Positions 24,424 through 49,602 of a DNA stretch of 64,000 bases are shown in pieces (position 1 is the first letter of the stretch; each line of letters begins with the position of its first letter). This stretch comes from Ypsolopha sequella (taxonomy: Eukaryota; Arthropoda; Insecta; Lepidoptera; Ypsolophidae): contig OW203993.1 in assembly GCA_934047225.1 (NCBI GenBank), positions 22,086,069 through 22,150,068 of the forward strand, read 5' to 3'. Under the pieces are notes generated by a model. The model worked only from the letters and a program-made list of their open reading frames with translations, was not told where the DNA came from and searched no databases. The position numbers and the translations under genes are program-made.

Positions 24424-24534
24424 CCCAGCTAGCAAAGTAATCATAAAAGAAAATTTATTAGCACTAAAAAGTGTTATAAAAGTCATTTAAAAGCAACGCG
24501 GTGACGCATCTCTCAGCGTTGTTGTATATTAGTG

Positions 24535-25175
24535 ATTCGTAACATGGTTTAGCTGTATTAGGTTAAACAGCCAAATCGTGATAATAAATGATGACATAAA
24601 CGTTTACTCGACCGCTTTATAGAGCGCATATAACACAGCTGTAAAAAAGTTCTCACAACGGCGATTTAGCGCTAATATGTTGTACAACAGGTTTCAATGG
24701 TACATTTATAAAGCACAGTAGATATATTTGATGTATAAAGTCGCTGCATTAGCGTTGGTGACATATCTGCCACGCATGGATCTAATCAGTGATATAAACG
24801 AACATATTGCAGCTGATATTCATCAAATTTATCGTATAACAGCATTTCCTTGGTGCTTGTGTCCTGATGGTGACGTAACATTATTTAGCTGTATAATCGG
24901 GATAATAAGATATGACAGAAACGTTTACTCGACCGCTGTATAGAGCGCATATAATACAGCTGTAAAAAAGTTCTCGCAAAAGCTATTTAGCACTAATAGT
25001 TGTACAACAGGTTTTAATGCTATATTTACACAACAAATTTGATTTACTGTGGTTCCAAAGTCGCTGCTTTAGCATTATTTATATATCTGACACGAATTGA
25101 TCTAATCCGTGATATAAAACAATACTTTGCAGCTGATATGCATCTATTTTATCGTCTAGCTATATAAACGTGATA
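24535..25175 (+). repeat. Subterminal direct duplication, two units of about 320-330 bp
   Basis: Unit 1 is about 24535-24868 and unit 2 about 24874-25175. They share CGTAACAT..TTTAGCTGTAT, CGTTTACTCGACCGCT, TATAGAGCGCATATAA, CAGCTGTAAAAAAGTTCTC, TTGTACAACAGGTTT and TTGCAGCTGATAT blocks with offset 321-339. It lies just inside the left terminus. Confidence 0.8.
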
Positions 25176-25421
25176 AAGGATCTACATTAATATTAAATAG
25201 TTGTAAACTTACTTTTGAAAGACGTTTATATGGTCATATAGTTACTTAAAAACGTTTTTTGGTTAAATATAACGCTAAAACAGCCCAAAATAGCTGCAAA
25301 TGACACCTATATACCAAGTTTATGCTCGTTAAGATAATTTCCAACATCGAGTTATCACAAAAAGCCGGCCATATTATTCTGTAAGTAAAGACTCGCACTC
25401 GTATCGTTCGTCATTGAAAAA

Positions 25422-27789
25422 ATGAATTTCGAATCTTTGAAAAGATTTAAAAGAAGTGGATCTTACAAAAGAAAAAATAGGAACAAGTACAAACAGTCAC
25501 AATCTTTCCTGGCTAAGAATGAACCACAAAATCAACCTTGTATAGAGAATTTAGAAGATGGTTCCGTACATACCAAAAGTAATATTTTATCAAAACAAGG
25601 CTCCAGCAAAGAAAATGAATCCGATAACGAAGTTGGAGAAGAAGAAATTTTATCATTTTCAGAAATATCTGATAGTGAAACCACAAGTGATGAGATGGAA
25701 GATAAAAATCTTGATTTCAAGAAAAATGTCAAGAAATGGGCCATTCAATTTAATATTTCACACAATGCTCTCAAGAATTTATTGGGAATAGTGAATAAAC
25801 GACTACCAAATATATTACCCAATGACCCACGAACGCTGTTGAAAACTAATACGAATATACAAGTCATTTCCATGGGCACTGGTCATTATTGGCATAATGG
25901 ATTAAAAGAACCATTAATTCAATATCTACAAACCGCTCATGATGTACCAGAGAAGCTTGCATTGAATATAAATATTGACGGATTACCAATCTCTAAAAGC
26001 TCCAAAAGTCAGCTTTGGCCAATATTATGTACTGTTTATGAGATTCCAAAACTTCAACCTATTGTTATTGGAATTTATTCTGGTTATGAAAAGCCTCCAG
26101 ATGTAAACATTTATTTGAGAATGTTTGTGGATGAAATGAAACAGCTTATGGGAAATGGTCTCGTAATAGAAAATATAAATGGCAACGAATCAAGGGTAAT
26201 TCTGAATATTAGAGTCTTCATATGTGACTCTCCAGCACGTGCCTTTGTTAAAGGTATATATATAAATTACATATTGCGGCTGAACATCGTTTGTTTCTAG
26301 TAGTTCTGTTGCGTAGTTGTGCGTCAACCAAACTAGAATTCAAATAACATAATGTATTTTAACATTAGACACATTTCATTTCATTAAGTCAACGACGAGA
26401 CTTTTTTTCACTTTTAGTCTTTTGCTTGCTATCCATTGTAACTCCTTTAGTTTACAGAGGTACTTTTATATATTAAAAACGCAGATTAAAAAAGTTCATT
26501 TTTTTCACTGACACATTTCATACCTTCTCTTTATAGGTAGTATGTAGGATTGTAGGTGAATGTGCAAGTTGTATATTGAACATCTTTTTTATTTTTCAGG
26601 TGTGTGTAACTTTAATTCTAAAGATGGGTGCCAAAAATGCACTGTACAAGGGGAATACTCACATGTATCTCGCACTGTGTTTTTTCCAAAAGTTGGATGG
26701 CCGAAAAGAGTTGATGAGGATTTCCGTGCAAATAAGTATGGCCGACACCATAAAGTGGATTCACCATTACTAGAACTTCCTGTGGACATGGTTGAAGATA
26801 TCATAATTGGAGATTCACTACATTTATTAGACCTTGGTGTAATGAAGCGCCTCTTAATCGCATGGAGAGATGGAAAGTACAGTAATAATTATGACACAAA
26901 GTGGTGCCATCAAGAAATAGTCAAAGTTACTAATTTTTTATCCAGTTGCAAAATGCCCAAAGAAATTCACAGGTCTGTCAGAGGCTTGGGGGAGTTATGC
27001 TACTGGAAAGGATCTGAGTTTCGTACATTTTTGTATTACTTAAGTTTCATAATTTGTAAACACACATTAAAACCTGCTGTATTTCAACATTTTCTGTGCC
27101 TATATTGTGCAATAACTATTTGTTCTAATGAAAATTATTTTCATTTCTTGGAACTAGCAAAAGAGTTGCTAGACATGTTCGTTGAAAATTTCAAAGACAT
27201 CTATGGGAAAGATTACATAACTAGTAATGTGCACAATTTGACACACGTTGTCGACGAGGTTAAAAAATTTGGAATACTCCAAAAGTTCAATGCCTATCCA
27301 TTTGAGAACAGATTACAAACCCTTAAAAAAATGATAAGACAAGGCAATAAGGCACTTGAGCAAGTTGCAAGAAGAATAAGTGAAATTAGTGACGTCGAAC
27401 TGAATTCTGCTGACGAAATTAGTAAAACATACCCATTTCTTAAAAAGTATAAACATGATCAGCGTGTAACAGAACTGCACCTAGAAGGTTATATTTTATC
27501 ATCACGGCAACAGGACAAGTGGTTTTTGAGCAACTTAGGTCATGTCATTGAAATTCAATGTTTCAGTAGTTCAGATAGTGGCATTATTATTCATGGTTAT
27601 CGTGTAGAGACTCTTGGTGATGCCTTTGTAAATCCGATCAAATCTTCATACTTAAATGTATACAAATGTGACCTTAAATCGATAAAAAAAACAGAATGTA
27701 TTTACACCCTTAATATGATAAAATGCAAACTGGTATCCATTGATTATGAATCGAATATATATTTTGTACCTCTACTTCATACTTTATAG
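25422..27789 (+). CDS. Element A transposase, CACTA/EnSpm-like, two exons (673 aa)
   Basis: Exon 1 is 25422-26253 and exon 2 is 26600-27789; the 346-base intron has GT (AAAG|GTATAT) and TTTTTCAG borders, and the joined frame has 673 codons plus stop. Residues 1-30 are very basic, then acidic. Candidate catalytic acids: Asp in NIDGLPISKSSKSQLWPIL (about 188), Asp in FICDSPARAFVKG (about 270, at the splice site) and Glu in NAYPFENRLQTLKKM (about 510). CNFNSKDGCQKC, then LHLLDLGVMKRLL, PKEIHRSVRGL and VHNLTHVVDEV blocks follow, as in animal EnSpm-like transposases. No stop or frameshift was seen, so it may be functional. Element B has a paralog. Confidence 0.85.
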
Positions 27790-28705
27790 CTAGGTAGTTA
27801 ATAAAATGCTTCTAATTTAAAAAAATCGTGTTTATTAATTAGTTAACACCAAAATACAAAGTAAAACGTAGTCTTGGAGAGTTCACTGTTATTGTACATG
27901 TAACCTACAACTCTCATTATTAAAACGCTGAGTCTATTTTGTCTAGCGCATTTTATAATAAATAAAATATATAATGTCAACAAAGACAGTGTCGTGACAC
28001 GAAAATTGCAGGTTGCATTTACACCATAGTGTCATGCAATAATGTAGTAGGTAACTACTTATTATTAATTTAAACTGGAAAAAGAAAAATCTGCTATCTA
28101 ATAGTAATAGTTTTTTACTTCTTCGATGAGTGTCTAATGAATAAACTGGTAACAAATCAAACTACTAATGCAGCGCACGTGACATTGAATTCACAATATC
28201 GTTCCTGTTTCCATACAGAAATGTATGAAATATTAATAATCAGCTTTTTATGTCAAAATATGGATCTTCAGTAACATTACAACGAAAGGTCAACATTATT
28301 TTAAAAACAAACACAAGAAAATATTTCAATTCTTATTTTTTTAAGTAATCAGTCTAAAAAGAATTATAATTTCTCTTCTTTATTTTAATATTTACTTAAA
28401 ATTACTATAAAACAAATGAACACATGAAAATATTTAAAGTCTCATTTTCCTAAGTAATCAGTCTTAAAATAATCATAATTGCACCTTTAATTTTTTTTGT
28501 TTGTTGAGATTATAAAAAAAATTAACACAGGAAAATATTTAACCTTATTTTAAAGTATACAAAACCAAATTACTTAGAAAGCTTGTAATGCTGTTCATGT
28601 TAAAAATAAGTAAAACACTAAAAAAATACCTATTCTAAGATACGAAAAATCAATAACGAGTTAGAAATATAGAGTTAGAATACGTTATCATACAATGTTT
28701 TCATT
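27790..28705. other. Convergent 3' regions of the two element A genes
   Basis: AT-rich, with AATAAAA at about 27801 as a likely poly(A) signal for the transposase. It holds a degenerate tandem repeat at about 28310-28550: three units of about 110 bp starting ACACAaGAAAATATTT and sharing AAGTAATCAGTCTtAAAA in the first two. Confidence 0.55.
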
Positions 28706-30936
28706 CTATTGGTCGTCGCAATCATTATCTTTACGTTCAGTAATTTGATCAGTACTACAAGAGGAAGTCTTAGTCAAATCATCAGTAGGAAGTACATTGT
28801 TTATTGTGGTATTAGGACCAGAAGAAGAAGCTTTAGCTGTGGAAGAATTTTTGCTTTTTACCTTCTTTGGCCTCACTCTGGAAGATGATGCTCTGAGACC
28901 CTTAGCACTATTACGCCTATTTGAGTTCCTCAAGACGTTTTTGAAAAATGATTCACATTCCTTTATCGTAAATGAAGGATCACTTTCCTGAATTATAGAA
29001 AAAAAGAAATTGACTGTCAATTCGTACGCTTTGAAACATACTTTCGTTTGGTTTTCTTTTCGGCTACCACCGGACCATGAGCATTCCGTTAGGAACTGTC
29101 TCGCAAACATGATGTCTACAAGAAAGTAACAATTACTCATACCATTTCCTTTGCCTACTCCACAAACTGTTAAAAATTTTCTTTTCAAATCCGATGCTAC
29201 AGTTGGATGTTTCAGCTTTTCCTCAAAATCAATCAGTGACTTTTTATTAGCTATTGGCTTCATTCCAATATGTTCGCTTCTTTGAATATCTTGTGCTTTT
29301 TTGAAATATTCATCAAATTTGGTGTCTATATTAATAACCATTTTTGTAACGCGTTCCAATGCATTTTCCACTCTTTTTTGACCTTCCTGAACGACCACTA
29401 AAGCCGATAAAAGAATATTTACTTTTTCATCCAAGTTATGTTTTGTTGAACTGTCGTGGTTTAATATCACGACGTTGTTTTGTTCCTCACTGGTATCTTC
29501 AATTGGGTTATTTTCCTCAACTAATACGGCATGACTAGGGTAACTAGATATTATATCGCGGGATTGGTTTATCACTGGTACATCAGAATCACAAAGTTGG
29601 TACGTTACATTTTCATCTAATGCACTTATAATGAATCCAGAAGTTTGCTGCTCCTCAAATTCCCTCACTTCCTCTGTTTCAAGGGACTTATTCGAAGGTG
29701 TTGTCGAAGAATTATTCTTGCCCTGAAATTTTTTTTAGTTAGTAAGCAAGCGTGTTTGCATACGTTTGCGTGCGAGTGAACGTGCATGCTTGCGTGCGAT
29801 TGCGTGAAAAGTGTTTGTTTTATGTGATAAGCACATTGTAAAGTCATCGTCATCTCAACCGGCCAGCCACTGCTAAGCACGGGTCTCCTCCAGGGAGAGG
29901 GTTTTAGACCATAGTCCACCACGCTGGCCTAATGCGGGTTGGGGACTTCACATACGCCTTAGAATTTCTTCTTTTGGCGTATGCAGGTTTCCTCACGAAT
30001 GCTTTCCTTCACCGAAAGTGTTGTATAGAATTTAATAAACATTGTAGCATAATATTTTTTACATACATATCTCTAATACCCGTGTTTATAAAAAGATATG
30101 GAATATAAACACCATTGCAAATCATATGTACATATAAAGTTTAATATTTTTAGGAAAGTATTTATAAAGTAGGTACGTCAAATTTAGAAGCTTTTGTAGG
30201 CAAAACAGTTTTGAACAGTAAAATGAAATTGTACAATTATAATATTACGTACCACGAGATGCTCTGCCAATATGAAAGATGTGGTTGGTGTATCTTGTAA
30301 CACAGGAATCGTTTTACCATTTCCGGTTGAAGACTTATTTATTTGATCCTGCCAAAAAAGAAAAGGGTAATTAAAATAAACACAAGGTTCTGAGCTTAGC
30401 CACATTCGGCGGCAACAAAATCAGGGATAATCTTTTTTGTTTATCCATACCAATATTATTAATGCGAAACCGTGCTTGTATAATTTTTTGTCCTTTCACG
30501 TCTGAATGGAGCGACGGATTGACAGTACCAGGTCAACTCGCGAATCGCAAAGCTAGTGATAAGTTGTATTTTTACTTACTTCAATACACTGTTCTGCTAA
30601 ATTATTTAAACATATAGTTTTCTTATTTTTTGTCCCTTCGCAAACTTTTCTTTTCTTTGCTTTTGATTTTGATTCCTCATCCTCTTCGGTTTCTGACACA
30701 TCTGACATATTGTCAACTTCGGCTTTCGCCTGTTCTAGAGTTAAATTCCATCTTTTAACTTCGCAGTCTAAAACACTCCAATCTTTCCCTGGTTTCGAAT
30801 ATTCCTGTTTTTTTAGCTTCTCTCCTTGAAGTAAGGATTGTGGCCACCATAATTTTCCGCCATTTTCCCAAAGTTCTGGGCAAAAAGTGATAAATATTTG
30901 CCCGTCTTCACGGGTTTGCACCACTTTAAAGTGCAT
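28706..30936 (-). CDS. Element A DUF4806-like protein (three coding exons, 489 aa incl. stop)
   Basis: Coding exons on the minus strand: 30936-30580, 30348-30253 and 29722-28706; introns have GTAAGT/TTTGGCAG and GTACGT/TTTCAG borders, all in phase 0. An acceptor TTTACAG lies 3 bases before the ATG, implying a 5' untranslated exon. The N-terminus (MHFKVVQTREDG, WENGGKLWWPQ, VLDCEVKRW, LEQAKAEVDN) matches the usual start of DUF4806 proteins; the C-terminal DUF4806-like part (about 290-430) has LLIDIM-type helix, CSWSGGSRKE and VNFFF..FFKNVLRN, then a basic tail. Function unknown; because an equivalent gene is in element B, it is probably a transposon accessory or DNA-binding protein. Confidence 0.78.
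29850..30025. repeat. Lepidopteran-type SINE body fragment in an intron
   Basis: Contains CCACGCTGGCC, GCGGGTTGGGGACTTCACA, AGGTTTCCTCACGA and CCTTCACCGAAAG, in the same order as 31070-31280. It lies inside the 29723-30252 intron of the DUF4806-like gene. Confidence 0.7.
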
Positions 30937-31069
30937 GTTCTGTAAATATAAAGATAGAGGTTAGATTAACGTATTACTTTCAAGCTGTCATGCGCCTAAT
31001 TATTTTGGTGTAGTAGTAAAAATACTGGTATAATATGAGACAAAAAAATAAAAGTAAAGTAACTATACT

Positions 31070-31345
31070 ATACTCTAAATACGTCCCACTGTTGGGCAGT
31101 AGCCCTAATTATGAGGGAGTGCGGGTCGTAGTCCACCGCGCTGACCCAGTGCGGGTTGGTAGATTTCACATATGCCTTAGAATATATTCCTGCGTGTGCA
31201 GGTATCCTCACGATGTTTCCTTCACCGAAAAGCCTAGGTATATGGTATTATAATAAACCGTAGTTGACTTGAGTTCCGAAAAACTGTTTTTGGTACGGGC
31301 GGGGTTTAAACCCACGACCTCATGAATGTGAGGCGAGTGCTCAAC
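31070..31345 (-). repeat. tRNA-headed SINE (type 1)
   Basis: On the minus strand: a tRNA-like head at 31345-31275 (GAGCACTCGCCTC, then GGTCGTGGGTTTAAACCCC as box B), followed by a body with CTTTTCGGTGAAGGAAACAT and CGTGAGGATACCTGCA, and an end CCCAACAGTGGGACGTAT. I recall this body as one of the commonest moth SINE types. It was inserted into element A. Confidence 0.75.
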
Positions 31346-31640
31346 AACTGAGATAAATATATAATATATATGTATATATATATCAGATAATAAATATATG
31401 TGGACATCTCACATACGGCCATGCAATGCGATCCCAAACTAGGCAGAACCTTTACTATGGGTATCGTATAGCTGATATACATACATAGATAAATACATAC
31501 TTATATAGAAAATAACATCTAGCTAGACACATCAAAACACAAGTGTTTTTTACATAAATGTGTACCGGGATTCGAACCCGCGACCCCGAGCTTCGCAGGC
31601 AGACGTACTACCGACCAGGCTGCGGAGCCGACGATATAAT
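31346..31640 (-). repeat. tRNA-headed SINE (type 2)
   Basis: On the minus strand: head GGCTCCGCAGCCTGGTCGGT and GGTCGCGGGTTCGAATCCCG, body with AAGTATGTATTTATCTATGT, TACCCATAGTA and TAGTTTGGGATCGCAT, and a TA-rich tail at 31346-31400. Clearly a tRNA-derived SINE abutting the type 1 copy. Confidence 0.8.
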
Positions 31641-32083
31641 CACTGCAATAAGAAAAAAAATGCAAATGAATAACTTGCACCTATGTTATCTTAAACATCA
31701 CAGAACTGTAGTCGTTTAGTTTTAACTATTAATAACATTTAAAATCAAAGTAGTAAAAAATAGTGTTACCTTAACTGTGTAATCCGTGCACCGTGATTGA
31801 CAAAAGCAAAAGTTTATGACAAGTAGTGTGACTCACTCGCTTTAACGGTAATAACTTGACTGAATTGGAAATGTCGAGAAAACATGCGTGAAGTGAGCAA
31901 CAACATCAGATAGTAAGGTTAAGTATGCATGTGCGGCGCTACTGCACTGTTCTCTTTCGTGACGCGGGGAATCCCCTTTCAGATAGGTAAACAATGCAAG
32001 TTAGATAGGTACTAAATAAAAACATGGTTTAACTTTGTAGATTGTTACTGATTGCGACTTAAAAAATGATGTTATTTTCTTTT

Positions 32084-32362
32084 TTATAGTTGGCAGTAGT
32101 TACATTCATCTTCCGGGTAATGATCATACACCAGCATATATTGACAGCCTTGACACCACAATTGTTTTATATTAACAAGTTTTTTAATATTGTTTTTGTC
32201 AATGATAAAGTGGGAGCGCAAACTTGAATCAGTGAATAGTCCGCAACCAAAACATTTTTCCGATAGGATGAAATGAGTTACAGCCCATGGCCATTCAGAT
32301 TCGTCAAGTTTCTTGAAATCATCTTTACTTAAAAAACAGTCAACGTCCAAAAATGCCACCAT
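32084..32362 (-). CDS. Element A small Cys-rich protein (92 aa)
   Basis: Intact frame, ATG 32362 to TAA 32084. Four Cys pairs or near-pairs (CFGCG, CQGCQ, CNYCQ at the end, plus an isolated early Cys) and His residues suggest a small treble-clef or zinc-ribbon-like fold. A TTTTCAG acceptor lies about 20 bases before the ATG, and a good donor (GTG|GTAAGTAA) at 32692-32699 could end a non-coding first exon near 32700-32800. The family is not recognised, and no counterpart was seen in element B. It lies inside element A, on the same strand as the DUF4806-like gene and upstream of it. Confidence 0.5.
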   Translation of the reverse strand: MVAFLDVDCFLSKDDFKKLDESEWPWAVTHFILSEKCFGCGLFTDSSLRSHFIIDKNNIKKLVNIKQLWCQGCQYMLVYDHYPEDECNYCQL

Positions 32363-33120
32363 TATGATTTTACGAAAATGAACTGAAAATATAATTACAA
32401 TTTATTTTTAAAAAGTATAATGAGTTGCATTAGGGTTTGACTGATTTCTCGAGGAACTCTAAAGTTTTATCATGGCGCCGATAATGCTGTAATCCAGTGA
32501 CATATCAGTAACTGTGGTACATTCCAAGTAATTCCATTGTTTAAATGATTTTTATTTAATTAAATATAAGAAAATCGAGGGGCGCATGCAAAATATATCT
32601 ATAATGCAATACTATTTCATCTATAAAATTGTGAGCGCAAGTGTAATTCAACTCATAAGCACGCACATGAACAGCAAGACAAAACATTAAATTACTTACC
32701 ACAGTATTTTGTTCTCCGTTTTCCAAAATAATTTATCACATTACCAATTAGTGGAACGCACGTATTTGGAACAATGAAGTAAGGTTATAGTAAATACAGA
32801 ATCACAATCACCAAAATAGCAACAAATAGCTCCATATCACCGTCGTGGCAACCATCGTATCATAATTTAGTGATATTGTGATCAAAAAATCATTATTATA
32901 ACACTAAAACGATTTAAATAAAACTTCTATATCACGGATTTGTGACTTAAAATTGTGATAGATGGCACCACATATACACACACAATATACACACATAATA
33001 TACACACAATATATCATCAAACAGCTGTAAAACTGGGGCCACTTTCCAATGATAGAAACGTATCTTTCATGGATATACGACTGCTTATATCACTAATATA
33101 CAGCTTATAATGTATTATTT
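32363..33120 (-). promoter_or_regulatory. Right subterminal region and likely promoter side of element A
   Basis: No coding frame. Contains a possible first-exon donor at 32692, ATATCAC/GTGATA motifs around 32830-32960, a CA/AT simple repeat at 32975-33010, and CAGCTGTAAAA at about 33022 and an AAGCTGTAT complement at 33100, motifs shared with the left end. Confidence 0.5.
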
Positions 33121-33131
33121 TGCTAGCTGGG

Positions 33132-33310
33132 TAAGGCCCTGGATGCGATCAAGGACTTAAACAGGCGTCAATCATCCGTTGGGCAACTAAATAATAGTCA
33201 CTTGGGACTTGGTGGACCAATTACACCAATTTACATTACATTACATTACAACAGCTCACCTCCCAAGCGAAGAAGCTTTTGTTTTTTGCACGTGAATTCC
33301 AATTATATCC
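33132..33310 (+). pseudogene. LINE ORF1 continuation, right of element A
   Basis: Begins with the duplicated TA and reads KALDAIKDLNRRQSSVG, then HLGLGGP, and in a neighbouring frame QLTSQAKKLLFFAREFQ. This is the continuation expected for the FP25-like ORF1 cut at 24423. A (TTACA)n expansion at 33223-33248 breaks the frame. Confidence 0.7.
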
Positions 33311-33767
33311 TCTTTAAATAAGTATTTTTTTGCATATTTTCTAATTTCAACTTCATCTTGTGAGTAATTTCGTTTTCTTTCAATTTCACATTCAATTTAC
33401 ACTCTTTGAACTGTTCTGCGGCTACATCTTGATTTAATTTTATTAATTTTACTTGGTAAAAGAATTTTGGTTATATTGTCTCTCTTTCATGAATTTTTTC
33501 TCAGTTCCTAAAACAAAGCATAAACATAAATTAGAAACCATACTATATTGTAGTGAATCAGAAATAAGTACAGTTTTGAAGAACAACTTACCAACATTTA
33601 AGGCCGAGTGCGACTTCTATTTTAAAATATCAGTTTGATTGATACTTTTTTTGGAGTCCTGTGGATCACCTAAAACAAGAATGCATTAGAGTCCTGTACA
33701 TAATTAATGTTGTGGGCAGATCGTAAAGGATTATTGACATAAGAATATACCATTATAGAGGTAGTTT
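33311..33767. other. No gene recognised
   Basis: AT-rich. A plus-strand frame at 33453-33638 (61 codons) shows no recognisable motif and is not considered coding. Confidence 0.4.
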
Positions 33768-34916: not shown

Positions 34917-35540
34917 AACAATTGCAGTCCACGATCACGACAGTAAATAAATAAACTAAACACCAGTTAACACCACACGAAGTACTTTTTATATAGGGGT
35001 TAAACACCACGAATTACCACACGAATACGACGAGACTAATAGACGATCTCGCGCACAAACCAACCAAACGTCAAAATTGACATTTTGTTTCGTTATACGC
35101 ATACGAAAATCGTTTCTTGTCAGCGTTTACGCATAATTTTGACGTAAGTGACGCAAAGAACTGTTTTACCGACGACACGCGTCAATTTTATTTAGTTAAA
35201 CAGTCTTGCAAAACCACTGGTACAAGACAACCTTAATTGCGTGCATGGTAGGAAGGTCATTTGATTATTTCCGCACGAATTAAGCGGGGAGGGGCGGGAG
35301 GTATTCCCCCCACCATGGAACCCCCCTACTTACCGTTATTTTTTTTGCCCAATATAATTAGACACCTGGTCTAAATAATTTTGTTCTAGGCATGGTCTAA
35401 CAAAGGTGGTCAATTTTTGTGGGGGAGCATGACTTTTTTAGTTTTTTTGGTGGTTTAACAATACTAGTAACTTTTACGACATAAATTCAATTCTGCATCG
35501 GCTACGGTTGGTCCCGGATTCTAAAAGATGTTCTGATATC
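34917..35540. other. No gene recognised
   Basis: Upstream of the Myb/SANT-like gene. CG-containing motifs and a GTCAAAATTGAC palindrome at about 35070 could be promoter sequence. A C-rich patch occurs at 35300-35330. Confidence 0.35.
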
Positions 35541-35559
35541 GCTGATTTTTATATCTGCC

Positions 35560-35985: not shown

Positions 35986-35994
35986 AATTAGTTT

Positions 35995-38665: not shown

Positions 38666-38807
38666 AAATCAAATCAAATCAAATCAAATTTATTTATTTC
38701 AGATCAAAGATCCATATAAAACATGTTAGTAATAAAACAACTTATGCTATTGTTAGTAACTTATGCTAATACAGCTTACATGTATAGAAGCGTGATTCGA
38801 CGCCCCA

Positions 38808-39866
38808 CTACACATGGACATGCAATCGAATCCAGTGGCGTAGAATCGGACAGTCCCTCCTGTCTACAAACGTGCTCAGCAAGCTGTTGGAGCTGGAACG
38901 CACGCGCTCCAACAGAGACGCACACCTTTTTCTTAATATGGCATGGAAGCCGTCGGTATAGGCCTCTGTGAACATGCCGGAAGCGCTACAAAAGCGCCTC
39001 AGCCCCAACAACACCCTAAACGCGTTGTTATATTGCACGCGCAGGGCATTGTATGCTCCCTGCGTATATCCGGTTGACAGACTACTGGTGTACAAAGACT
39101 GGCAGAATGCCTTGAAGAGCATGACTTTCACTTCCTTTGTACACCTAGCAAACCTACGAGCCAACATATTGCAGCGAACACACAAAGCCCTACGCTCCCT
39201 TTCAACATCTGCATTGTCGTTTAAATCCGCAGTGACCCAATGACCCAGGTATTTAAACTTGTCCACATGTTTCAGAGGAGTTCCATTAAGTAGTAGTTCA
39301 GGAACGGTGTCGTAGCTCTTCTGAACCGCCCTGAACACAATCAACTCACTCTTTGATTCATTATACCTAAGTCCATGAGTCACCGCATAGAACTCACATA
39401 TTCCCAACAAGTGTCTGAGGGCCCTCATCGACGGGCTCAACAACACCATATCATCCGCGTAGCTAATATTGTTCATAGCTACCCCGTCTATTGAACAACC
39501 AACTTGGGCGTTGCTGAGCTTGACGATGAGCTGGTTCACATACAAGTTGAAGAGTTTGGGTGATGTCAGGCCACCCTGCCTTACTCCACACTCCAACCTG
39601 TATGCATCTGACAAGTTATTGCCGGCCCATTTTACATAAATAGACTGATTGCCGTACCAATACTTAAAAATTGACACAACTTCTTTTGGTAGCGTGGTTT
39701 CTTTTTCCAGCTTTTCCCAGAGCACTTTATAGGAGACCAGATCAAACGCCTTGGACAAGTCCAGAAAACAGGCATACACCGGTGTTTTCCTGTCAGCATC
39801 GTATCTGACAGTGTGCTTAAGGCATAGAATAGCAGTCTCAGTTGACAGCTTGAAAAATAATTGCAC
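38808..39866 (-). pseudogene. Non-LTR reverse transcriptase, 5' truncated
   Basis: 352 codons. Seen: CFLDLSKAFDLVSYKVLW, ECGVRQGGLTSPKLFNLYV, catalytic YADD at about 138, HGLRYNESKSELIVF and YLGHWVTADLNDN, then a C-terminal region with ERERRALCVRCNMLARRF. The RT N-terminal blocks are missing. It ends close to the 3' repeat tail, so the C-terminus is probably nearly complete. Confidence 0.85.
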
Positions 39867-40296
39867 TTATTTCACTCAGACAGTTTGTAAATTCAATGAG
39901 GTTATCGCTTTTAGTGTCACTCCTAGGGTCGGTAGACATGTACACTGAGAATACCACCATACAACGATCCTTTAGATCTATTTTAATTGCTGAAATTCGA
40001 TCACTACTACATTTAATCACTGAAACGTTGGGGAATAAACTTTTACGCCATAACAGTGCTACACCCCCGTAAGGCCGCCCACACAGTATACCAGCTGACG
40101 TATCTATCGCCGATTTACCGGTAAAATCGAATTCCTGGTCTAACTCGCAGAGATACGTTAAGTTATGAGGATAAAGCCAGGTTTCCTGTAAGGCAATAAT
40201 ATCTGCCTCGCGGCATAACTTCCGAATACAGTCCGTGGACCTAATGACATTCTTACAGTTAAATGTAACTAATTTTATTAAAGTTGTACCTATCAT
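39838..40296 (-). pseudogene. AP endonuclease N-terminal part of the same LINE
   Basis: 153 codons from ATG 40296: LVTFNCKNVIRS, DIIALQETWLYPHN, GGVALLWRKSL and VYMSTDPR are the opening strands of an APE-type LINE endonuclease. The GDFN and SDH motifs have been lost in the deletion that joins it, out of frame, to the RT at about 39850. Confidence 0.82.
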
Positions 40297-40589
40297 ACTA
40301 GATTAATACTGTTGCATTTGCTATATGATTGGCTGGCGCTCTTTCTTGTTCTTTTTGCTTTATAAAAATAAACATACCTATATAGTTTTTGTTGGATTTT
40401 CTTTTTTTGTTAGAATCAAATAAAAACAAAATTTTACAAAAACATTTTTTAATATTATCTTCTTTTGAATAATATAAATATTAATATAAAATTTTTACAA
40501 CTTTTTTTAAACTTTTAAAAGAGTCTTCAGAGACAAGTCTTTGAATTTAACTCCTTTAACTCCTCTACCACTTCCTCGAGTAAATCTAT

Positions 40590-41043
40590 GTACCCATACA
40601 CTATAAAAAGATCGCAAGCCTTGCGCCGTTTCATCTCGACCTTTTGGGGTTTCTTGATAGATAGGCCATTTCGCTTCTGGAATCCTAAAAACCAGTCCTT
40701 TTCTGGAATATCATCTTTGAATGGAGGTATCGCGCCCCCTTATCGACACTCCGACCGAATGGAGTTTTAATGCCATTTAGCCGGACATATTCTGAAATTA
40801 ATACTCTTGCTTCTTTCCTGGTTAATGGGAAACCATGTCTCTCCATTATATGCAGATTTTCTGCCATTTTTCTTTCAGTTTCTGGCAAAAATTACTGTGG
40901 GATGGCCAGCGGTACTGTGGGAACATACTATTCGTGTATTTATGGTACTCCTAGGCACCCCGTATACTTTTGACGCTTGGTTGCTTGTCATATATCCATT
41001 CTTAACCTCATCTACTGCTTGTAAGAGCTCTGGACCAGAGTAG
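40590..41043 (-). pseudogene. pogo/CENP-B-type transposase N-terminal remnant
   Basis: Minus-strand pieces in shifting frames: YSGPELLQAVDEVKNGYMTS and SNQASKVYGVPRSTINTRI (a psq-type helix-turn-helix), then ENLHIMERHGFPLTRKEA and LISEYVRLNGIKTPF, and IPEKDWFLGFQKRNGLS (CENP-B-like half). The DDE core is missing. It is not the same subfamily as the intact pogo protein at 51558. Confidence 0.75.
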
Positions 41044-41049
41044 GTTTGA

Positions 41050-41120
41050 CATTTTTTTCATCTGGAAATCTGGAAAATCATCCGGAAATCATCTGGACCA
41101 TCTGGAATGAGCATTTTTTA
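41050..41120 (+). repeat. Short CATCTGGA tandem array
   Basis: Five to six imperfect copies of (A)TCATCTGGAA within about 60 bases. Confidence 0.5.
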
Positions 41121-41195
41121 GTAAAATTTAAGAAAATCCCTTTGCTATTTAGAACTATCTAAAGTGTGGCTGAAAAGCAAAAAGCTAAGGAAATA

Positions 41196-41318
41196 TTTCA
41201 ATCAGTCAATCAATCAAAACCACTTTATTGTACATAAAAGAAAAAAATAAAATACAGTTTTGAAAAATAAATTTGTACAAAGGCGGGTTATAGCGATTTC
41301 TTCCAGCCAAACTTTATT
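41196..41318 (-). repeat. LINE/SINE tail, second copy
   Basis: Shares ACTTTATTGTACA and GATTTCTTCCAGCCAA with 5757-5860; here the tail is (TTGATTGA)n on the minus strand. A second ATTT-type tail (TTTATTTATTTATTTGATTT) abuts it at about 41310-41335. Confidence 0.6.
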
Positions 41319-41506
41319 TTATTTATTTATTTGATTTACAGACTAATAAATAACCATATGATGAAACAATTAGGGTTGTTCGGCTACGGAACCGTATTCA
41401 ACTGCGGTATCCTGAAAGCATTCCCTAGGCAAAGGTGACCAATAATAATGTAAACAATAAAAAGACACATCGATAATGTCGGTAATATCGTATTTTATAC
41501 CGACCT

Positions 41507-41508
41507 AT
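41507..41508. repeat. Element B target duplication (AT), left
   Basis: AT precedes the CCCAG terminus, and AT follows the opposite terminus at 49562-49563. Confidence 0.5.
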
Positions 41509-41511
41509 CCC

Positions 41512-42146
41512 AGGCAGCACACAAGTCATATAACTGGCCAACAATTTAACCTTATGCAGGGTTAAGCTTTATTATATATGTATAGAAGCTGTGTGTATTG
41601 CCAAGTTCTGTATTAAAGTTGTTTTTTGTTATGATAATGCTATTAGCTGAGTTAGTTCTGTAATTTGCCGATTTTATTTCTTAAAGCTGAATAGTCATCA
41701 TAAATAGACCTGTTACTCAAGAGTTTGTGTAACCTTTTGTATAACACTGGTATAAGATTTTATTATCCAGCAGAGTACTGAATAATTGAGGTTCTGTTCT
41801 CTTTTAGCTGTATTACACACCACATCTTGACAGTTACACAGCTGCTGTATAAAGTAGGGTGTGGTTCCTTTTATGAAGCATATAGTTAGTTAACAGAATT
41901 TAAGGTAGCTGTTATAACTACTTTATGGCGCTTTAAGTACGAAATTACTGTCATGTGCAGCTAACTGGGGTAAAAGCAAAAGTAACAGATTCTTATGCAG
42001 AAGTTGGCTGCGTATTCACGAAAAGTAGACATTTTTTAAGCTAGCAGAACTATTTTGCAATATTTGTCAGCATTTATGCGGCTAGTAGTTTGACATTTCG
42101 ATTTCGTGTGCGCGCTTAATACTTAATATTAAAGTGTGTTGTGTAA
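41512..42146. promoter_or_regulatory. Left subterminal region of element B with AGCTG motifs
   Basis: AGCTG, often as AGCTGTAT/AGCTGTGT/AGCTGAAT, occurs at about 41588, 41647, 41683, 41805, 41838 and 41908, spaced 35-120 bases. CACTA-type transposases bind such subterminal repeats; that role here is inference. The region also holds the promoter of the transposase. Confidence 0.55.
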
Positions 42147-44431
42147 ATGCCGCCTATAAAAAAAAATGCTAAAATCATCTCCAATTCATGGAAAAATAGA
42201 AAAAGAACAGGAGGCATACGAAGAAAGTGCTTGCGCGAGTATGAAAACATAAAAAAATCTATTTGTGCTAATCCACAAACGACTGAAGGAAGTTCTTCCA
42301 GTTCATCTGATCCAAGTACAAATCAAGTGCGACCACAATCCATAGAAACGGGTTCCGTAATAAATAATTATGAATCTACATTGTGTGAAGATTATGAATC
42401 AATTCAGAGGTCTGAAGATAGTGATGCGAGTTCCAATAATTTTGAAAAAAGTGAAACGGAATATGAAAAAAATTTAATATTTCGTAATAACTTAAAAAAA
42501 TGGGCCATAAATAAAAACATTTCTCTAGAAGCCTTAAGGGAATTATTAGCTGTCGTCAATCAGAGATTGCCAGGAGTTTTGCCAGTAGACCCGAGAACAT
42601 TATTACAGACTAAGAGAAATGTCGTAATAAAAAAAATTGAAGGTGGAGAATACTGGCACAAAGGACTTATTGAACCTTTAAAAGATATAATAAATTTTGT
42701 ATGGCTGGAAATCCCTGAATCTATACAATTAAATTTGAATTTTGATGGCTTACCTATTTTCAACAGTTCGAAAAAAGAATTTTGGCCAATTCTTTGCAAT
42801 ATCTGCGAAAAACCAGAAATAGAGCCTCTTGTAGTTGGAATTTATTATGGATCAGGAAAACCAAAGAACCTTAGTCAGTATTTAGAAGATTTTGTCGCAG
42901 AAACTCAAAGTCTTCTTGAAAATGGAATTTCTATAGTTAGAGAAGGCAAAGAAAATATTATAGTCAATGTAAGAATAAGGTGCTTCATCTGTGACTCTCC
43001 GGCTAGAGCATTTATAAAAGGTAAATGATGACTAAACTTGTTATTACAGATGTCATGCAAAAACTTTTTAGGGTTTTGGTAGCGGTAGGGTAGGGGTAGG
43101 GTAGGGGTGGGTTAGGGATTAGGATAGGGGTAGGGTAGGTTACACGACATTCATTGACTGGGGGTACGAAGTTCGCCGGGTCAGCTAGTTAATTAATATA
43201 TAAAAGAGGTCTTGCAGATCCTTACTACAATAAACTACAATCCTTTATTGAAAATATTTTACATTTTCAGGTGTTTGCAACTTCAACTCTAGGCATGGAT
43301 GTTTAAAATGTACGACTGTAGGAGAATACTCGCATCAGTATCATACTGTCGTTTTTCCAATCTCAAGATGTCCTAAAAGAACAAACGAAGAATTCAGAAA
43401 TAAGAAATATAGAGATAATCTAAAATCTGATACACCCCTTTTAAAATTACCCATAGATATGATCGAAGATTTTCCTATTTCCGATTCATTACATCTGATT
43501 GACTTAGGAGTCATGAAACGATTACTCGTGGGATGGCGTGATGGAAATTTTAAGAATCTTACTACAAAATGGCGAGCTGACGATACGCTGAAAGTAACAC
43601 AGTTTTTACTCACCTGTAAACTACCCTCCGAAATTCATAGATCCATGCGAGGTCTAGATGAGCTTCATCATTGGAAAGCATCTGAATTCCGGTCATTTTT
43701 TTCTGCCTGACTTTATGTCGATAGGACCCTATGAACATTTTTTGACTCTTTTCTGTGGGGTAACAATTTGCTCTAGCCTACAGTACAGCTCAATATTGGA
43801 CCTTTCTCATGAATTATTATTATATTTTGTAGAAAACTTTAAAACATATTATGGTAACTACATTACTAGCAACATTCATAATCTGGTACATATTACTGAT
43901 GAAGTTCGTAAATTCGGCCCACTTAACACCTTTAATTCTTACCCTTTTGAGAACAAACTGTACTGCATTAAAAAAATGCTTAGAGCTGGCAACAAGCCAT
44001 TATCACAAATAGCTAAAAGGCTTACAGAGAGTGATTGGAATGTTCAATCTAAATTAAGTAAAGCGAAAAATGAAACTAACCAATATCCTGTCATAAAAAC
44101 AAATAGTAAAAATAGAAAAATAATAGATTTTGGTAAGTTCGTAATTTCTAACAAAAGACAGGATAAGTATTTTATGACTACAGAAGAAGAAATTATAGAA
44201 GTGGCAGAAATAACCGATGAACATATCAAAGGGTACAGAATTGAAAATGTATCTGACATCTTCGAATTACCTATTAAGTCTTCATATCTTAATATGTTTA
44301 AAACAGGTGTACAAAATGGAAACCGTACAACAGAAATCATAAGTTTCAATAACATTAGCTATAAGTTTGTAGTAACTACAAACAAAAATGAGCTTTATTT
44401 CATTCCTCTATTACATACATTAACAATTTAA
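42147..44431 (+). pseudogene. Element B transposase (frameshifted)
   Basis: Exon 1 is 42147-43020 and exon 2 starts at 43271 after a 250-base intron (AAAG|GTAAAT ... TTTTCAG), at the same codon as in element A. Candidate catalytic residues: Asp in NFDGLPIFNSSKKEFWPIL, Asp in FICDSPARAFIKG, Glu in NSYPFENKLYCIKKM. Exon 2 reads to SEFRSFF and a stop at 43708-43710, while the rest (from about 43700 to 44431) is in another frame; compared with A about seven codons (the LYYLSFI region) are lost at the break. Without this indel it would be about as long as the A protein. N-terminus basic, then Ser/Glu-rich. Confidence 0.82.
43070..43189 (+). repeat. G-rich tract plus Helitron-like end in the transposase intron
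   Basis: A GGTAGGGTAGGGG-type array (43081-43140) is followed by ACGAAGTTCGCCGGGTCAGC and CTAG at 43185-43188, before T. A short hairpin (CGAA/TTCG) plus CTAG-T matches the 3' rule for Helitrons, and I recall this end as frequent beside moth microsatellites. Confidence 0.45.
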
Positions 44432-45020
44432 ACTGTATAGACCGTATTCTAATTGCTATGTATTTACGAGGTACTTGGGCACGCTGCTGTTTAGTAACTA
44501 AGAACAGTAGGAAGGAAGGAAAGGAATGAAAACCAAGGAAGGAATACTTATCTTGATCTCATGCTATTTATAAAAAATATTTGACTAAATGTGTAATATT
44601 AATGTGAATTGTAATAAAACAATTATTTAAGTCAATCAGTCTTCCTTTTATTTTCAGTACAAAAATCACTTGAAAATACTTAATTGTCCGATACATCACT
44701 ACCTATTAAACGATTACACTTAACAAAGTACGAAAAAAAAAGCAAGTTATAAATCTGATTATTGAGTAAACGCAAGTGTTTTACTCGGGATTCTGTTTGA
44801 AAGAACACTTAATAAAATTCTAGTTATAAAAATCTAAATTGTTATAAAGAAATCAACAAAATAGAATTAAACGTATAGCGTTACATCGCCATAAAAAAAT
44901 CAACAAAATATAATTCAACGTATAGCGTTACGCATTAGGAACGAAATACTTTCATATGGAAACATCTTCTTTCCTTATAAATACTAAAAAGTAATAAAAA
45001 TTATAAAAATAACAAGACCT
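44432..45020. other. Convergent 3' regions of the element B genes
   Basis: AT-rich. AATAAAACAATT at about 44613 is a likely poly(A) signal for the transposase. A 48-base tandem duplication occurs at 44849-44935 (units share AAATCAACAAAATA and AACGTATAGCGTTAC). Confidence 0.55.
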
Positions 45021-48004
45021 CTATTCATTCTCTTCAATTATAGCTTCGTTTTCATTACTTGGATTATTTTCTTCATCATCGTTTTTATTATTAATGCCAT
45101 TATTATTAGTCTTTTCGTCGTTGGGATTATCGTTACCGTCATTATCATTTATATTAACTTCACCATCATTTTGTATATTTCCTTCACCATCATTTTGTAT
45201 ATTTCCTTCACCATCATTATTCATAACATCTTCGTCGTCATGATTATTAGCTGCACTTCTTTGATTCTGAGGCTTACGTTGGACTCTTTTGTCGAATTTC
45301 CTTCTTTTCTTGCTGGACTGACGAATGTTCTTGGATGTTTTCCTTTTCAAAGCATTTCGCAATATGTTTTTGAAAAACTCTTCATTATCTTGCACTGTGT
45401 ACGTGTTGTCCCAATAATAGACCATTTGGAAAAAGAATTTTAATACGTTTTTATATTTTTTGAAGCCTATTTTAAGATCATCTCCACGACTTCCTCCAGT
45501 CCAGGAACACTGGCAAAGGAATTCTTTGGTAAAAATTGAATCTAAAAGTCTATAAGCACAGTTAGAGCCTGATCCTGGTGCCACAGAACATAATATTGCA
45601 TACTTTTCTAAGTATGTTTTAAGTATTTTAGGGCATGATAGTTCTTTGTCGAGTTTCTCCAAGCTTTCGATGTTATCGACAACTTCCATACACATCCTTT
45701 TAGTTTCTGCTCCTTTGGCTTGTGCTAAAGTTGTTACTGTAATATTTTCTGTGCTTTGTTCTTGTATTTCTTGTAACTGAACCGACATTTCCCCAAGCTT
45801 TTTCATTATTTTATTTTGGTTGTCCAAGATTGCAGTTTGTATCTCGTATAAATTATTAATTTGGGTTGTCATATTTTGATCATTTGTATAATAATGTACT
45901 TCTTGAGGTGTATTTTCTTGCTCTCCGGTGGATACTGTATAAACTGTTTCATCGATAATATAGGAGGGCTGCTGGTTGGTTAGAATTGACGTTTCTGGAA
46001 ATATTTGTATGGTTGGATCTGCTTGTGTGAATGGACTTGCTTGTATGGTTGGACCTGCTTGTGTGATAGGACCTGCTTGTGTGAATGGACCTGCTTGTAT
46101 GGTTTGACTTGCTGGTATGGTTGGACCTGCTTGTGTGATTGGACCTGCTTGTATGGTTTGACTTGCTGGTATGGTTGGACCTGCTTGTGTGATTGGACCT
46201 GCTTGTATAGCTTGACTTGTTGGTATGGTTGGACCTGCTTGTGTGATTGGACCTGCTTGTATGGTTTGACTTGCTGGTATGGTTGGACCTGCTTGTGTGA
46301 TTGGACCTGCTTGTATAGCTTGACTTGTTGGTATGGTTGGACCTGCTTGTGTGGTTAGACTTTCTTGAATGATTTGACTCGCGTGAATGGTTGAAGTTGG
46401 TTGTTTCATTCTTTTCTTTGGGTTCCCAGACTTAATCTGCAACAATGCATAAAAACCTTTTCGAATTATTCTAGAAAAATCAACTGTAAAGCTGTAAACA
46501 CACGATAGTATCAAACTGATCAAACGCAGTGTCGTCCTTCCAAAAATGACAGTGTTTGGGGAATTTTACGGAACTGAAGCGAGCCACGGATTTTTCTTTC
46601 TTTCTTTCCGTTTGCCTCAGTTCGGCAGTTGCAGAGTTGCAGCGATGGCGTCTGCATGTGCAAATACAATAGAATTTCTAGAAAAATATCGCGAATGCGA
46701 ATGTTTGAGGCTAATTAACACTAAATATTATAAAAATAAACATTACATTATAATTTATTTTTAAAAGTACGTAGCGGCACGGCGCGCACTAGCAGAGGCC
46801 GCTTAGAACAAAGCGCCATTTTTGACACGCACACATAGACGCTACATTTACAGGCAATCTGGGACAGTCTCGGACAGAGCTAGGTCGCGAGCATCGCAAG
46901 TGCTCGTGTGTTCATCACGACATTCACGCGGCACATAATTACCTACCTTTTAGCAAAAAGAATAAGATATATTATTACAGTTACAATGTATTTGGTTGTT
47001 TAAATACAACAAAATTATTACATACATATTACATACCTATTCAACTTATCGTTCGCTGATAAAACGCCAGTATTTAGGTACTACGGGTTAGGTTTAGGTA
47101 GGCATATTCTTTGTTGGCGCTCGCCGCCCGCGCCGCCGCCGCGCGCCGCGCGGGTATGCGTACCTACCTACCAACCTATTCTATTTATGTATTACGCTGG
47201 TAATTTTTTTATCTAGACGCACGACATGTATGTATGTTTGTAAACTAATACTACCTATCTCCTTTTCAAAATTCAAAATCAATACGGAAGCAAGCACCCT
47301 AGTGAGTCAGCAAGTATAGGTATGTATTTTCAAGAATTGCAGGAGCGGACATTCTGTAACTTCTTTATTTTGTGGTCGCGTGTCGCATCGATCGAGAAAT
47401 GAAGAGAAAGTCACTGTGTGGGGAAATCGCTCTGTCGTCATCCATTTGGAAGGACATCAGAAGACTGATCAGTTAAAACTGCCCGTGTGTGGCGAGCATT
47501 TAATTATTTAAAAACAAATAATTCAGATAATTGCTTATAACCAGTTACAACCTCAATTTTCTTAGTTTGTCGTTCATATTTTTACTTGAACTACCAAAAT
47601 GATGCACAAAACGACAATGGATATGGACATAGAGATTTAAATAAATAGGTAGGTAGGTATTAATTTACCATTATTCGTTGAGCTGCAGCATTCAAATTTA
47701 GAACTTTTTGAGGAGGAGTAGTACGTTTGTAGGATCGTTCACCGTCATCGGTATCGTCCGTGTCTGTTTTGTCTAACATTTTTGCTAATTCATCCTCTGC
47801 TTCTTCGTATGTACTATAGTTTCTTCTTTTCACTACACAATTATAGGTCAACCAATCTGTCTGGGGCTGGGTACTATCATTTTTTGCGAGTATATCACCG
47901 TACATCTTAGGCCAACGCAATATTCCTTTGACTTCCCATGTTTCGGGCACAGTACATAGTTCTACCTTGCCTTTTCGACGAGTCGACACAATTTTAAACG
48001 GCAT
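45021..48004 (-). CDS. Element B DUF4806-like protein (two coding exons, 583 aa)
   Basis: Coding exons 48004-47669 and 46436-45021; donor AATG|GTAAAT, acceptor TTGCAG, phase 0; a TTTTTCAG acceptor 5 bases before the ATG implies a 5' untranslated exon, as in element A. N-terminus: MPFKIVSTRRKG, WEVKGILRWPKM, YNCVVKRRNYSTYEEAEDEL, the DUF4806-type lead module. Middle: about 110 residues of Ala/Gly/Pro/Thr/Gln repeats. C-terminal DUF4806-like domain: KTYLEKYAIL, YRLLDSIFTKEFL, CSWTGGSRGDD, LKFFFQMVY, FFKNILRN, then a basic patch and an Asn/Asp/Glu-rich tail with NIQNDGEG repeats. Open throughout, although the neighbouring transposase is broken. The molecular function is unknown. Confidence 0.76.
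46010..46370 (-). repeat. Coding minisatellite in the DUF4806-like gene
   Basis: Five full 54-bp units encode QAGPTIP(A/T)SQ(A/T)IQAGPIT, with partial units at both ends. The A/T variants alternate in the first four units, giving a 108-bp higher-order repeat. Confidence 0.9.
46437..47668 (-). other. Intron of the element B DUF4806-like gene
   Basis: 1232 bases. Unusual for its GC-rich patch at 47113-47155 (CGCCGCCGCCGCGCGCCGCG) in an AT-rich background. A plus-strand frame at 46546-46764 has no recognisable motif. Confidence 0.55.
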
Positions 48005-49195
48005 GTTCCCTGAAAAATATCAATAACTTAATTAGTACGTACTTACCTTAAGTAGGCACATCTGGCCACTTGAAATAACCTAAATGTTTTTTGCAAGGCA
48101 CAACTTACATCTATCTACATTAGTAGCGCAGCGGCTCAAACTACCTATCCTATGTCTGCCACTTATCAAATTTTTAACCCGATGTCTCTTCTTTCTGACT
48201 TATTAATGCGACAACTATCTGCTATACTCCACAAACGGCCGTACGCATGCACTCTGATGGCAGACTGACTGACTATACTATGTTTTACGGCGGAGCGAGT
48301 GGGGAGGCGGGGGGGTTAATACAGATGCCGCGCGCCCGCACCGACCGAACCGAGGAGAGTACCTAAACACTACAGAGGTGTAGTAAGTAGTTAAACCTAC
48401 TATACTTACTTATTTATTCTGTACTACATTAATTATTACGTTAATTGTAATTTTTAGTGTCGTAACACTTTTTTATATTGAATAAGTATTAACTAATAAT
48501 AAATCTGAATATGATTAGAGCTAAAAAAAACAAATAACAAATAGGTCTATACTGTGGGTTTTCATTTATTTTATGACTGAATCCTAATTGTTTGATTTAT
48601 ATTACGAGTGTGCATGATTATAGAACAGTTATCGAAAATATGTTGTGGGCAGACCAGTTTTAACCAGAGAACATCTGAATAAGTGGACACATAAGGTCTG
48701 TTATGCAGACATTAGACGAGGAGCCGCTGTGCAAGCAGACTTTATTCAGAATGAGCGTCGCCATAATGAATAACATAACCTATTAAATGATGAGAAATTT
48801 TATACTCGAAAACTCAATTATGATAACGAAATCGGTATAATATTCTTGTAAAAAGTATTACAAGGTTACTTTTGAACCCTCAAATGGTATAAGAACATAA
48901 AAAATATTTCACTCGTAAAAACAAACCAACGACGAAATGTTGTTTATTTCTCAAAAACCTGGCTTATCAGGTAGCGCGTAAAAATTTTGCACGAAATGTA
49001 TATATGAATACACGGTAAAGTTGCATGCGCACCTACAATTTATTATTTCAAGCACAAATAAGCGTATAAAATTATTTAATTACCGCTATTTAAGACACAA
49101 TTTGGCCATTTTTTTTTCTGCTCACCAAACGCAACGCGTGCACTTTTAATTTATTTTTGTGTTCGATTATGTCAACTTCAAATTTAATTTGAATA
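48005..49195 (-). promoter_or_regulatory. 5' region of the element B DUF4806-like gene
   Basis: No coding frame was recognised. A GC-rich stretch at 48289-48360 (GGCGGAGCGAGTGGGGAGG, GCCGCGCGCCCGCACCGACC) is a promoter candidate by composition and position. Confidence 0.4.
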
Positions 49196-49558
49196 AATTC
49201 TTGATAAATGTTCTGAAATAAGCTTAAAGCTGTGTATCATCTGAATATCTGAGCTTTGAAGGACTAAGCATATAGTTCATTCATCATTCATTCATCTTCT
49301 GGATAACAGAGCTGTAATACTTGCATAAAAGAACAAAATGCTTTTATGCAGAAGATACTCAGCTTGTCGTACAGTTATTCAAAACTTATTCATGTGTTAT
49401 ATTGCTATTACTCAGCTATTAGCGGTATAATTTTGTGCCCAAATTGCTTGAGTAGCGTCTGAGTAAGCGCCAAATCAGCTAATTACGGTAGTCTTATTCA
49501 GCTATTCGTTTCTGTGACTGCTATTATAAAAAACTTACTCAGAAGGTTTGTGCTGGCT
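49196..49558. promoter_or_regulatory. Right subterminal region of element B with AGCTG motifs
   Basis: Motifs AAAGCTGTGTAT (about 49222), GAGCTGTAATAC (49308) and complementary forms CTCAGCTTG, CTCAGCTATT, ATCAGCTAATTA and TTCAGCTATT (49365-49510) line the 340 bases before the terminus. Confidence 0.55.
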
Positions 49559-49602
49559 GGGATGGGCATCACTGTTTTTTTGCATTTTCATACAAAAACG
49601 AA

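Follow-up and report, generated by a model that had tools for sequence, protein, structure and literature searches.

Two TRC-type transposons and their copies

The window, by which we mean the whole 64,000-nucleotide stretch of contig OW203993.1 (C10 in our numbering) of the moth Ypsolopha sequella, contains two large DNA transposons, here called elements A (24424..33131, + strand, 8708 bp) and B (41509..49561, + strand, 8053 bp). Each combines a two-exon transposase gene with a convergent gene, predicted to be spliced, for a protein with a DUF4806 domain, hereafter the accessory gene. The elements represent two families of TRC-type (animal CACTA) cut-and-paste transposons that were amplified separately, A being a complete and B a defective copy, and it is nearly certain that they are TRC elements with a resident accessory gene.

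Element A starts with the terminal inverted repeat (TIR) CCCAGCTAGCAAA (24424..24436, + strand), which recurs in inverted orientation at 33119..33131 (- strand). Its termini, CCCAGCTAGCAAA...TTTGCTAGCTGGG, thereby form inverted CCC...GGG ends, and the target site duplication (TSD) TA is located at 24422..24423 and 33132..33133, as read in the sequence and from a comparison of copies. Element B has the termini CCCAGGCAGCACA...TGTGCTGGCTGGG, with one mismatch in 13, and is flanked by AT at 41507..41508 and 49562..49563. The CCCAG ends and 2-bp duplications that an earlier, sequence-only reading had placed at these positions were thus read directly for both elements.

The 5' kilobase of A was found in 14 near-identical copies in the 866.8 Mb of genome searched. 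Both ends were retained in 13 of these, all with a perfect 2-bp duplication in the flanks, while the last 1.1 kb of A was absent from the stretch fetched for the fourteenth (L021). The duplicated dinucleotide was TA in 5 of the 13 copies and another one in 8, indicating that the duplication consists of two bases of free sequence. Over about 8.7 kb, the two-ended copies each had 1-8 substitutions relative to the majority sequence. Copy L013 was internally shorter by about 150 bp, and the copy in the window had 27 bp more than the majority copy, the difference being located at 32969-32995. The transposase gene was open and all six predicted splice dinucleotides were retained in 13/13 two-ended copies, and the accessory gene was open over its full length in 12/13. 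With 12 copies in which both genes are open and almost no divergence among them, family A appears to have been active recently, and its dispersal is recent. Seven diverged relatives of the 5' end (L022-L028) had no transposase or DUF4806 match, and no right end was found in the four of them in which it was sought.

The B family was represented by 12 further transposase matches, 50-51% to A and covering at least 400 of 409 residues, that were placed in this family by score. The sole further copy that was read (L031) is 8075 bp in size, has an AA duplication and is 99.5% identical to B in the window. Relative to this sister copy, in which the joined transposase frame is open for 684 amino acids (aa), the transposase of B in the window is broken by a 20-bp deletion in exon 2 at 43700.

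The transposase of A is encoded by exons at 25422..26253 and 26600..27789 (+ strand) and is 673 aa long; the first exon carries the first two catalytic aspartates (in DGLP and CDSPAR) and the second the C(2)C motif, HNLTH and the catalytic glutamate in YPFEN. The exons of the B transposase are located at 42147..43020 and 43271..44431 (+ strand), the deletion disrupting the latter. As the sequence-only reading had proposed, the intron is at an equivalent site in the two genes, between FVK and G in A and between FIK and G in B, in phase 1 and with GT..AG borders in both; all splice sites in A and B are sequence predictions. The transposases are 46% identical (B being represented by L031) and the DUF4806 cores 35%, which bears out the earlier view that A and B are too diverged for recent duplicates of one another and places them in separate families.

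The assignment to the CACTA group, also made in the sequence-only reading, agrees with several features of the transposases. That of A matched Transposase_21 with E=9.5e-6 and 25.4 bits, under the cut-off of 28.6 bits, and the C-terminal piece of that of B matched DUF4218 with 27.1 bits at a cut-off of 27, while a Pfam search with the transposase of L033, an element described below, gave no match to either family. The aspartates in DG(L/I)P and CD.PA, the C(2)C (C.KC), the H(3)H (HNLTH in A) and the glutamate in FE were invariant in all six lineages of this genome that were aligned. The CMC/CMCT group is defined, in the text available of the source (PMC12730594), by D, D and E and by a C(2)C and an H(3-4)H that lie between the second D and the E, and retention of these residues across the six lineages places the transposases in the CMC group. 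D-X-L/M-H-X3-L-G was likewise present in 6/6 lineages, while the hydrophobic residue before it, which is part of the TRC motif L/V/I-D-X-L/M-H-X3-L-G, was not conserved.

The ends have the marks of the TRC elements. CCC was present at the TIR tips of all 13 two-ended A copies, both B copies read and L033, and 2-bp duplications were found in A (13/13), B (AT and AA) and L033 (TT), in place of the CACTA termini and 3-bp duplications of plant En/Spm. According to the available text of DeMarco et al. 2006 (PMC1636069), TRC elements, comprising SmTRC1 and its insect relatives, have a CCC core in the TIR, 2-bp direct repeats and a Transposase_21-related transposase, and an Aedes element of 9.2 kb with CCCAGTCAAC ends is close to A and B in both size and ends. 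The Hydra element Spongebob (EnSpm-4N1_HM), reported from Bombyx too, has likewise been assigned to TRC/CACTA; its ends are CCCAGCCAACATTGAC and its TSD is 2 bp long. It differs from A and B in that its consensus of 5.8 kb is without a readable transposase and that no accessory gene is reported in the text available (PMC4298943). A and B thus add new families to a known kind of element, and the suggestion that their termini are non-canonical and possibly undescribed was mistaken, since these marks were published in 2006 and CCCAG ends are known from Aedes and Hydra.

Relatives of the transposase are common in insects; the search gave 513 proteins, the 120 matches listed including moths, butterflies, beetles, mosquitoes and sand flies, and the five best being from moths and one butterfly. 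A sequence search of PDB with transposase exon 2 yielded nothing useful (best E 0.0051, a helix-turn-helix regulator), and among the viral contigs searched with the transposase 2 stretches fitted the pattern and none was a relative.

The accessory gene and its DUF4806 domain

The accessory gene of A has three predicted exons on the - strand, at 30580..30936 (N-terminal module), 30253..30348 and 28706..29722, the last containing the DUF4806 domain (28862-29266), and encodes a protein of 489 aa. That of B has two, at 47669..48004 (N-terminal module) and 45021..46436, the latter with a tandem-repeat linker followed by DUF4806 (45288-45692), and encodes a protein of 583 aa. The domain (PF16064) scored 30.6 bits in A and 35.3 bits in B against a Pfam cut-off of 25, confirming that the convergent genes seen in the sequence-only reading are of the DUF4806 type. 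Scores in other lineages were 29.2 (F2), 46.6 (L034), 44.6 (L032), 37.3 (C8) and 24.8 (L033), the last being just under the cut-off and the last three computed on pieces joined by eye. In A and B alike the protein is composed of an N-terminal module, a stretch resembling a coiled coil, and the DUF4806 domain.

A structural model of the domain, which in A falls in exon 3, matched solved BEN domain structures, and as modelled DUF4806 has a BEN-like DNA-binding fold. At the sequence level the BEN family (PF10523) was matched below cut-off only, with E=0.083 for F2 and 0.11 for a Chilo protein, and not at all by A and B at E values up to 10. The N-terminal module gave a poor model (pLDDT 64) without a usable structural match, and a PDB sequence search with the DUF4806 alignment found nothing useful (best E 0.13, a salivary protein).

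The DUF4806 exon of A had one protein homologue, and a 5-sequence alignment had two, among the 7998 candidates sharing most words that were scored. A protein of Chilo suppressalis (P0122) is continuous across the junction of the two predicted exons of the B accessory gene. Its identity to the B accessory protein is 87% (415/476 aligned residues), versus 35% between the A and B cores. By this similarity, a second moth would harbour a close relative of B, either inherited or horizontally transferred. The tandem repeat in the B accessory exon (TQAGPTIPASQTIQAGPI-like, 45980-46400) differs in length in the Chilo relative.

Pairing of transposase and DUF4806 gene across the genome

At least 52 DUF4806 matches were found genome-wide. 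Of the 52, 35 were located at most 20 kb from one of 91 places with a transposase match, against an expectation of about 0.4% per match for random placement, and 34 of these 35 were convergent with the transposase. The other 17, with no transposase match within 20 kb, comprised 8 in an array on C5, 4 in an array on C7 and 5 single matches. Among the 55 transposase matches of at least 300 residues, a convergent DUF4806 match at most 6 kb away was present for 14/14 in family A, 12/12 in B, 1/17 in a third family, F2, and 2/12 of the others. When read, two of the ten remaining others also turned out to carry the gene, L032 in convergent orientation and L033 on the same strand, and eight further ones were left out of the lineage reading.

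In all, the DUF4806 gene was present in each of the seven diverged lineages read in this one genome (A, B, F2, L034, L032, L033 and C8), which together with the 34 of 35 convergent matches supports the proposal that the pairing has been inherited within a transposon lineage. L033 is a complete element of 7668 bp with CCCACACAGCACA ends and a TT duplication; no convincing ends were found when those of L032 and L034 were searched for, and the reading of C8 was confined to the sequence downstream of the transposase. The two-gene convergent plan put forward in the sequence-only reading holds for five lineages and was rejected as a defining trait, since in L033 and C8 the transposase and the DUF4806 gene share a strand. 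The N-terminal module, a charged linker and DUF4806 recurred in 6/7 lineages, for L033 and C8 as judged by eye only; this layout was not found in L032.

Identity between transposases of the six aligned lineages goes down to 26%. The six-taxon trees built for transposase and for DUF4806 shared the splits B+L034 and L032+L033 and were discordant for A and F2, with weak support. By our arithmetic, agreement in two of three splits would be reached by about 7% of random six-taxon trees. The trees are no more than suggestive of co-inheritance of the two genes. That the DUF4806 genes are fixed host genes, an outcome that would have undermined the pairing, does not apply to A, the accessory gene being present at all 14 dispersed copies.

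Two loci distant from transposases were also seen. One (L051, G000:C7:25274300-25278300) has open frames of 450 and 409 aa, each with two coiled-coil-plus-DUF4806 modules like the TRC accessory type, and no transposase match within 16 Mb; it is a candidate host or domesticated tandem DUF4806 gene. At the other (G000:C5:28697556-28702972), eight DUF4806 matches were located in frames of 852 and 862 aa, the nearest transposase match being about 1.06 Mb off.

Proposed role of the accessory protein

Plant En/Spm elements have subterminal motif arrays and a 3-bp target duplication. A and B resemble them in having such arrays, weakly so in A, in the two-protein logic (TnpA and TnpD) and in a DDE transposase of one group, and differ in the CCC instead of CACTA ends, the 2-bp duplication and the BEN-like second protein. 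Nor is the second protein obtained by alternative splicing of the transposase unit in the manner of TnpA, being instead the predicted product of a separate gene on the opposite strand. PIF/Harbinger transposons have a second, Myb-like gene and hence also pair a transposase with a separate DNA-binding helper, with differences from A and B in transposase superfamily, target site and helper domain.

Among TRC elements, the extra proteins of SmTRC1 are described as alternative splice products for which other TRCs showed no similarity, whereas A and B carry a separate gene with a conserved domain, and the available text of DeMarco et al. 2006 mentions no DUF4806 gene for TRCs (PMC1636069). The same text proposes a Schistosoma TRC protein for the DNA-binding part of TnpA, with no relative found in other animal or fungal TRCs (PMC1636069). 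DUF4806 and BEN domain proteins are treated as host proteins by Pan et al. 2023, as cited in the accessible part of PMC11075544; the Pfam family and the fold are as here, whereas the gene described here is inside a mobile element. No link of DUF4806 to CACTA elements was seen in the four open-access papers found to mention the domain, subscription papers and Repbase being outside the search, and the DUF4806 second gene may be new for TRC elements. The TnpA-like DNA-binding part now has a concrete candidate, a BEN-type protein that has a gene of its own and is found repeatedly in diverged TRC lineages. Such a protein would also suggest a function, the first to be proposed, and a possible mobile origin for the widespread DUF4806 domain, and family A, with both genes open in 12 copies, offers intact material for two-component work.

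For motifs near the element ends, we compared 1170 terminal bp with the element interior, merging overlapping matches into one. In B, AGCTG was the most end-enriched of 512 five-mers, with 13 non-overlapping AGCTG/CAGCT sites (7 in the left subterminal region, 41524..42108, and 6 in the right, 48962..49546) versus 8 in 6853 bp of interior (p 2.6e-9). In L033, AGATAT occurred 17 times (10 left, 7 right) versus 4 in 6468 bp (p 5.8e-18). The DUF4806 core of L033 is 17-28% identical to the others and one of the two most divergent, L032 being equally divergent; in this one comparison the most different motif thus goes with a divergent core, as expected if protein and sites coevolve.

We slightly favour, on the whole, the explanation that the DUF4806 protein and the transposase constitute a TnpA-like two-protein TRC system. 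Its central component, TnpA-like binding of the ends by the DUF4806 protein, has by analogy close to an even chance of being correct. The protein would bind the subterminal motif arrays, self-associate and so draw the two element ends together, and recruit the transposase to the paired ends, as does TnpA, an unrelated protein, for maize En/Spm. The CMC transposase would then cut and join with a 2-bp stagger. The accessory protein may also regulate the element's own promoters, and it can probably act in trans, in which case derivatives lacking the domain could still spread.

Several observations weigh against this explanation. In A the signal was weak, with 5 non-overlapping AGCTG/CAGCT sites in the left subterminal region (24439..25023) and 2 in the right (32532..33116) versus 9 in 7508 bp (p 6e-4, rank 9 of 512), and a tandem duplication (82% alike) in the left region supplied part of this count. 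The top five-mer of A was ACAGC, which overlaps AGCTG (10 versus 10, p 9e-6), and AGCTG ranked second only when both strands were counted unmerged, so that the palindromic CAGCTG was doubled; the signals in B and L033 hold after merging. By a plain count, the left end of F2 was without such a motif array.

The F2 family also speaks against an essential role. It has 17 transposase matches, 14 without a stop in the exon-2 match. One copy (C20) retains the DUF4806 core and has a premature stop in the N-terminal accessory exon, and in another (C24) the core was lost by an internal deletion. Probes of 401 bp from the 15 other copies crossed the C24 deletion junction in 12 cases (two by only 5 bases), started inside the junction in one (L040) and fell short of it in two (L041, L045). 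Most probed F2 copies are thus without the core, and 10 of the 13 deletion copies had no stop in the exon-2 match, indicating, as read from internal stretches rather than from ends or TSDs, that a derivative without DUF4806 but with an open transposase came to be present in many copies. The outcome that the sequence-only reading had named as counting against it, copies consistently lacking the gene, was therefore found in part, in that F2 mostly lacks the core. The DUF4806 gene is dispensable at least in cis, and its protein either works in trans or is non-essential. The deletion junction is common to most probed F2 copies and contains about 12 bp of filler; in the one copy read further (L030) the N-terminal accessory exon is open, which would still allow a shortened accessory protein to be produced.

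The numerous F2 derivatives without the core would also be in keeping with the protein being a regulator that represses or activates the element promoters, or counters host silencing, rather than an end-binder for transposition. A BEN-like fold, as modelled here, is typical of transcription factors, and the left motif array of B is upstream of the transposase gene. We nevertheless consider this unlikely, since the motifs are enriched at both ends in B and L033 and since the accessory gene of L033 is on the transposase strand, leaving no promoter at the right end, where motifs are present. A regulatory role of some kind, instead of or besides end-binding, is somewhat less doubtful, and the two roles may coexist.

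The persistence of the DUF4806 gene in seven lineages, with transposases diverged down to 26% identity among the six aligned, makes it improbable that it is a dispensable passenger kept by hitch-hiking, since decay would be expected over such divergence; its open frame in 12/13 A copies points the same way, but the youth of these copies makes them uninformative by themselves, and the many F2 copies that have lost the core remain an argument for a passenger. Several independent captures of host DUF4806 genes, which would suit the variable orientation and the 17 of 52 matches without a nearby transposase, are more improbable still, because the N-terminal module, charged linker and DUF4806 recur together in 6/7 lineages (L033 and C8 by eye), the trees agree in 2/3 splits, if weakly supported, and a single inversion accounts for the orientation.

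It is a more speculative proposition, and one we doubt somewhat, that the DUF4806 family consists, in origin, of the end-binding proteins of animal TRC/CACTA transposons and is the missing counterpart of plant TnpA. If so, the scattered animal DUF4806 genes, such as the zebrafish Chr4 cluster, the Hydra expansion and the tandem arrays found here, would be TRC genes or domesticated derivatives of these, and TRC elements would be a recurrent source of BEN-type transcription factors.

Two further features were seen in the window. Element A contains a cysteine-rich open reading frame (ORF) of 92 aa with CxxC pairs (32084..32362, - strand), which matched no Pfam family above cut-off, was open in 13/13 two-ended copies and is possibly a third gene of A. 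Between A and B, at 38808-40302 (- strand), are remnants of a non-LTR (long terminal repeat) retrotransposon, with endonuclease- and reverse-transcriptase-like ORFs that were named by eye.

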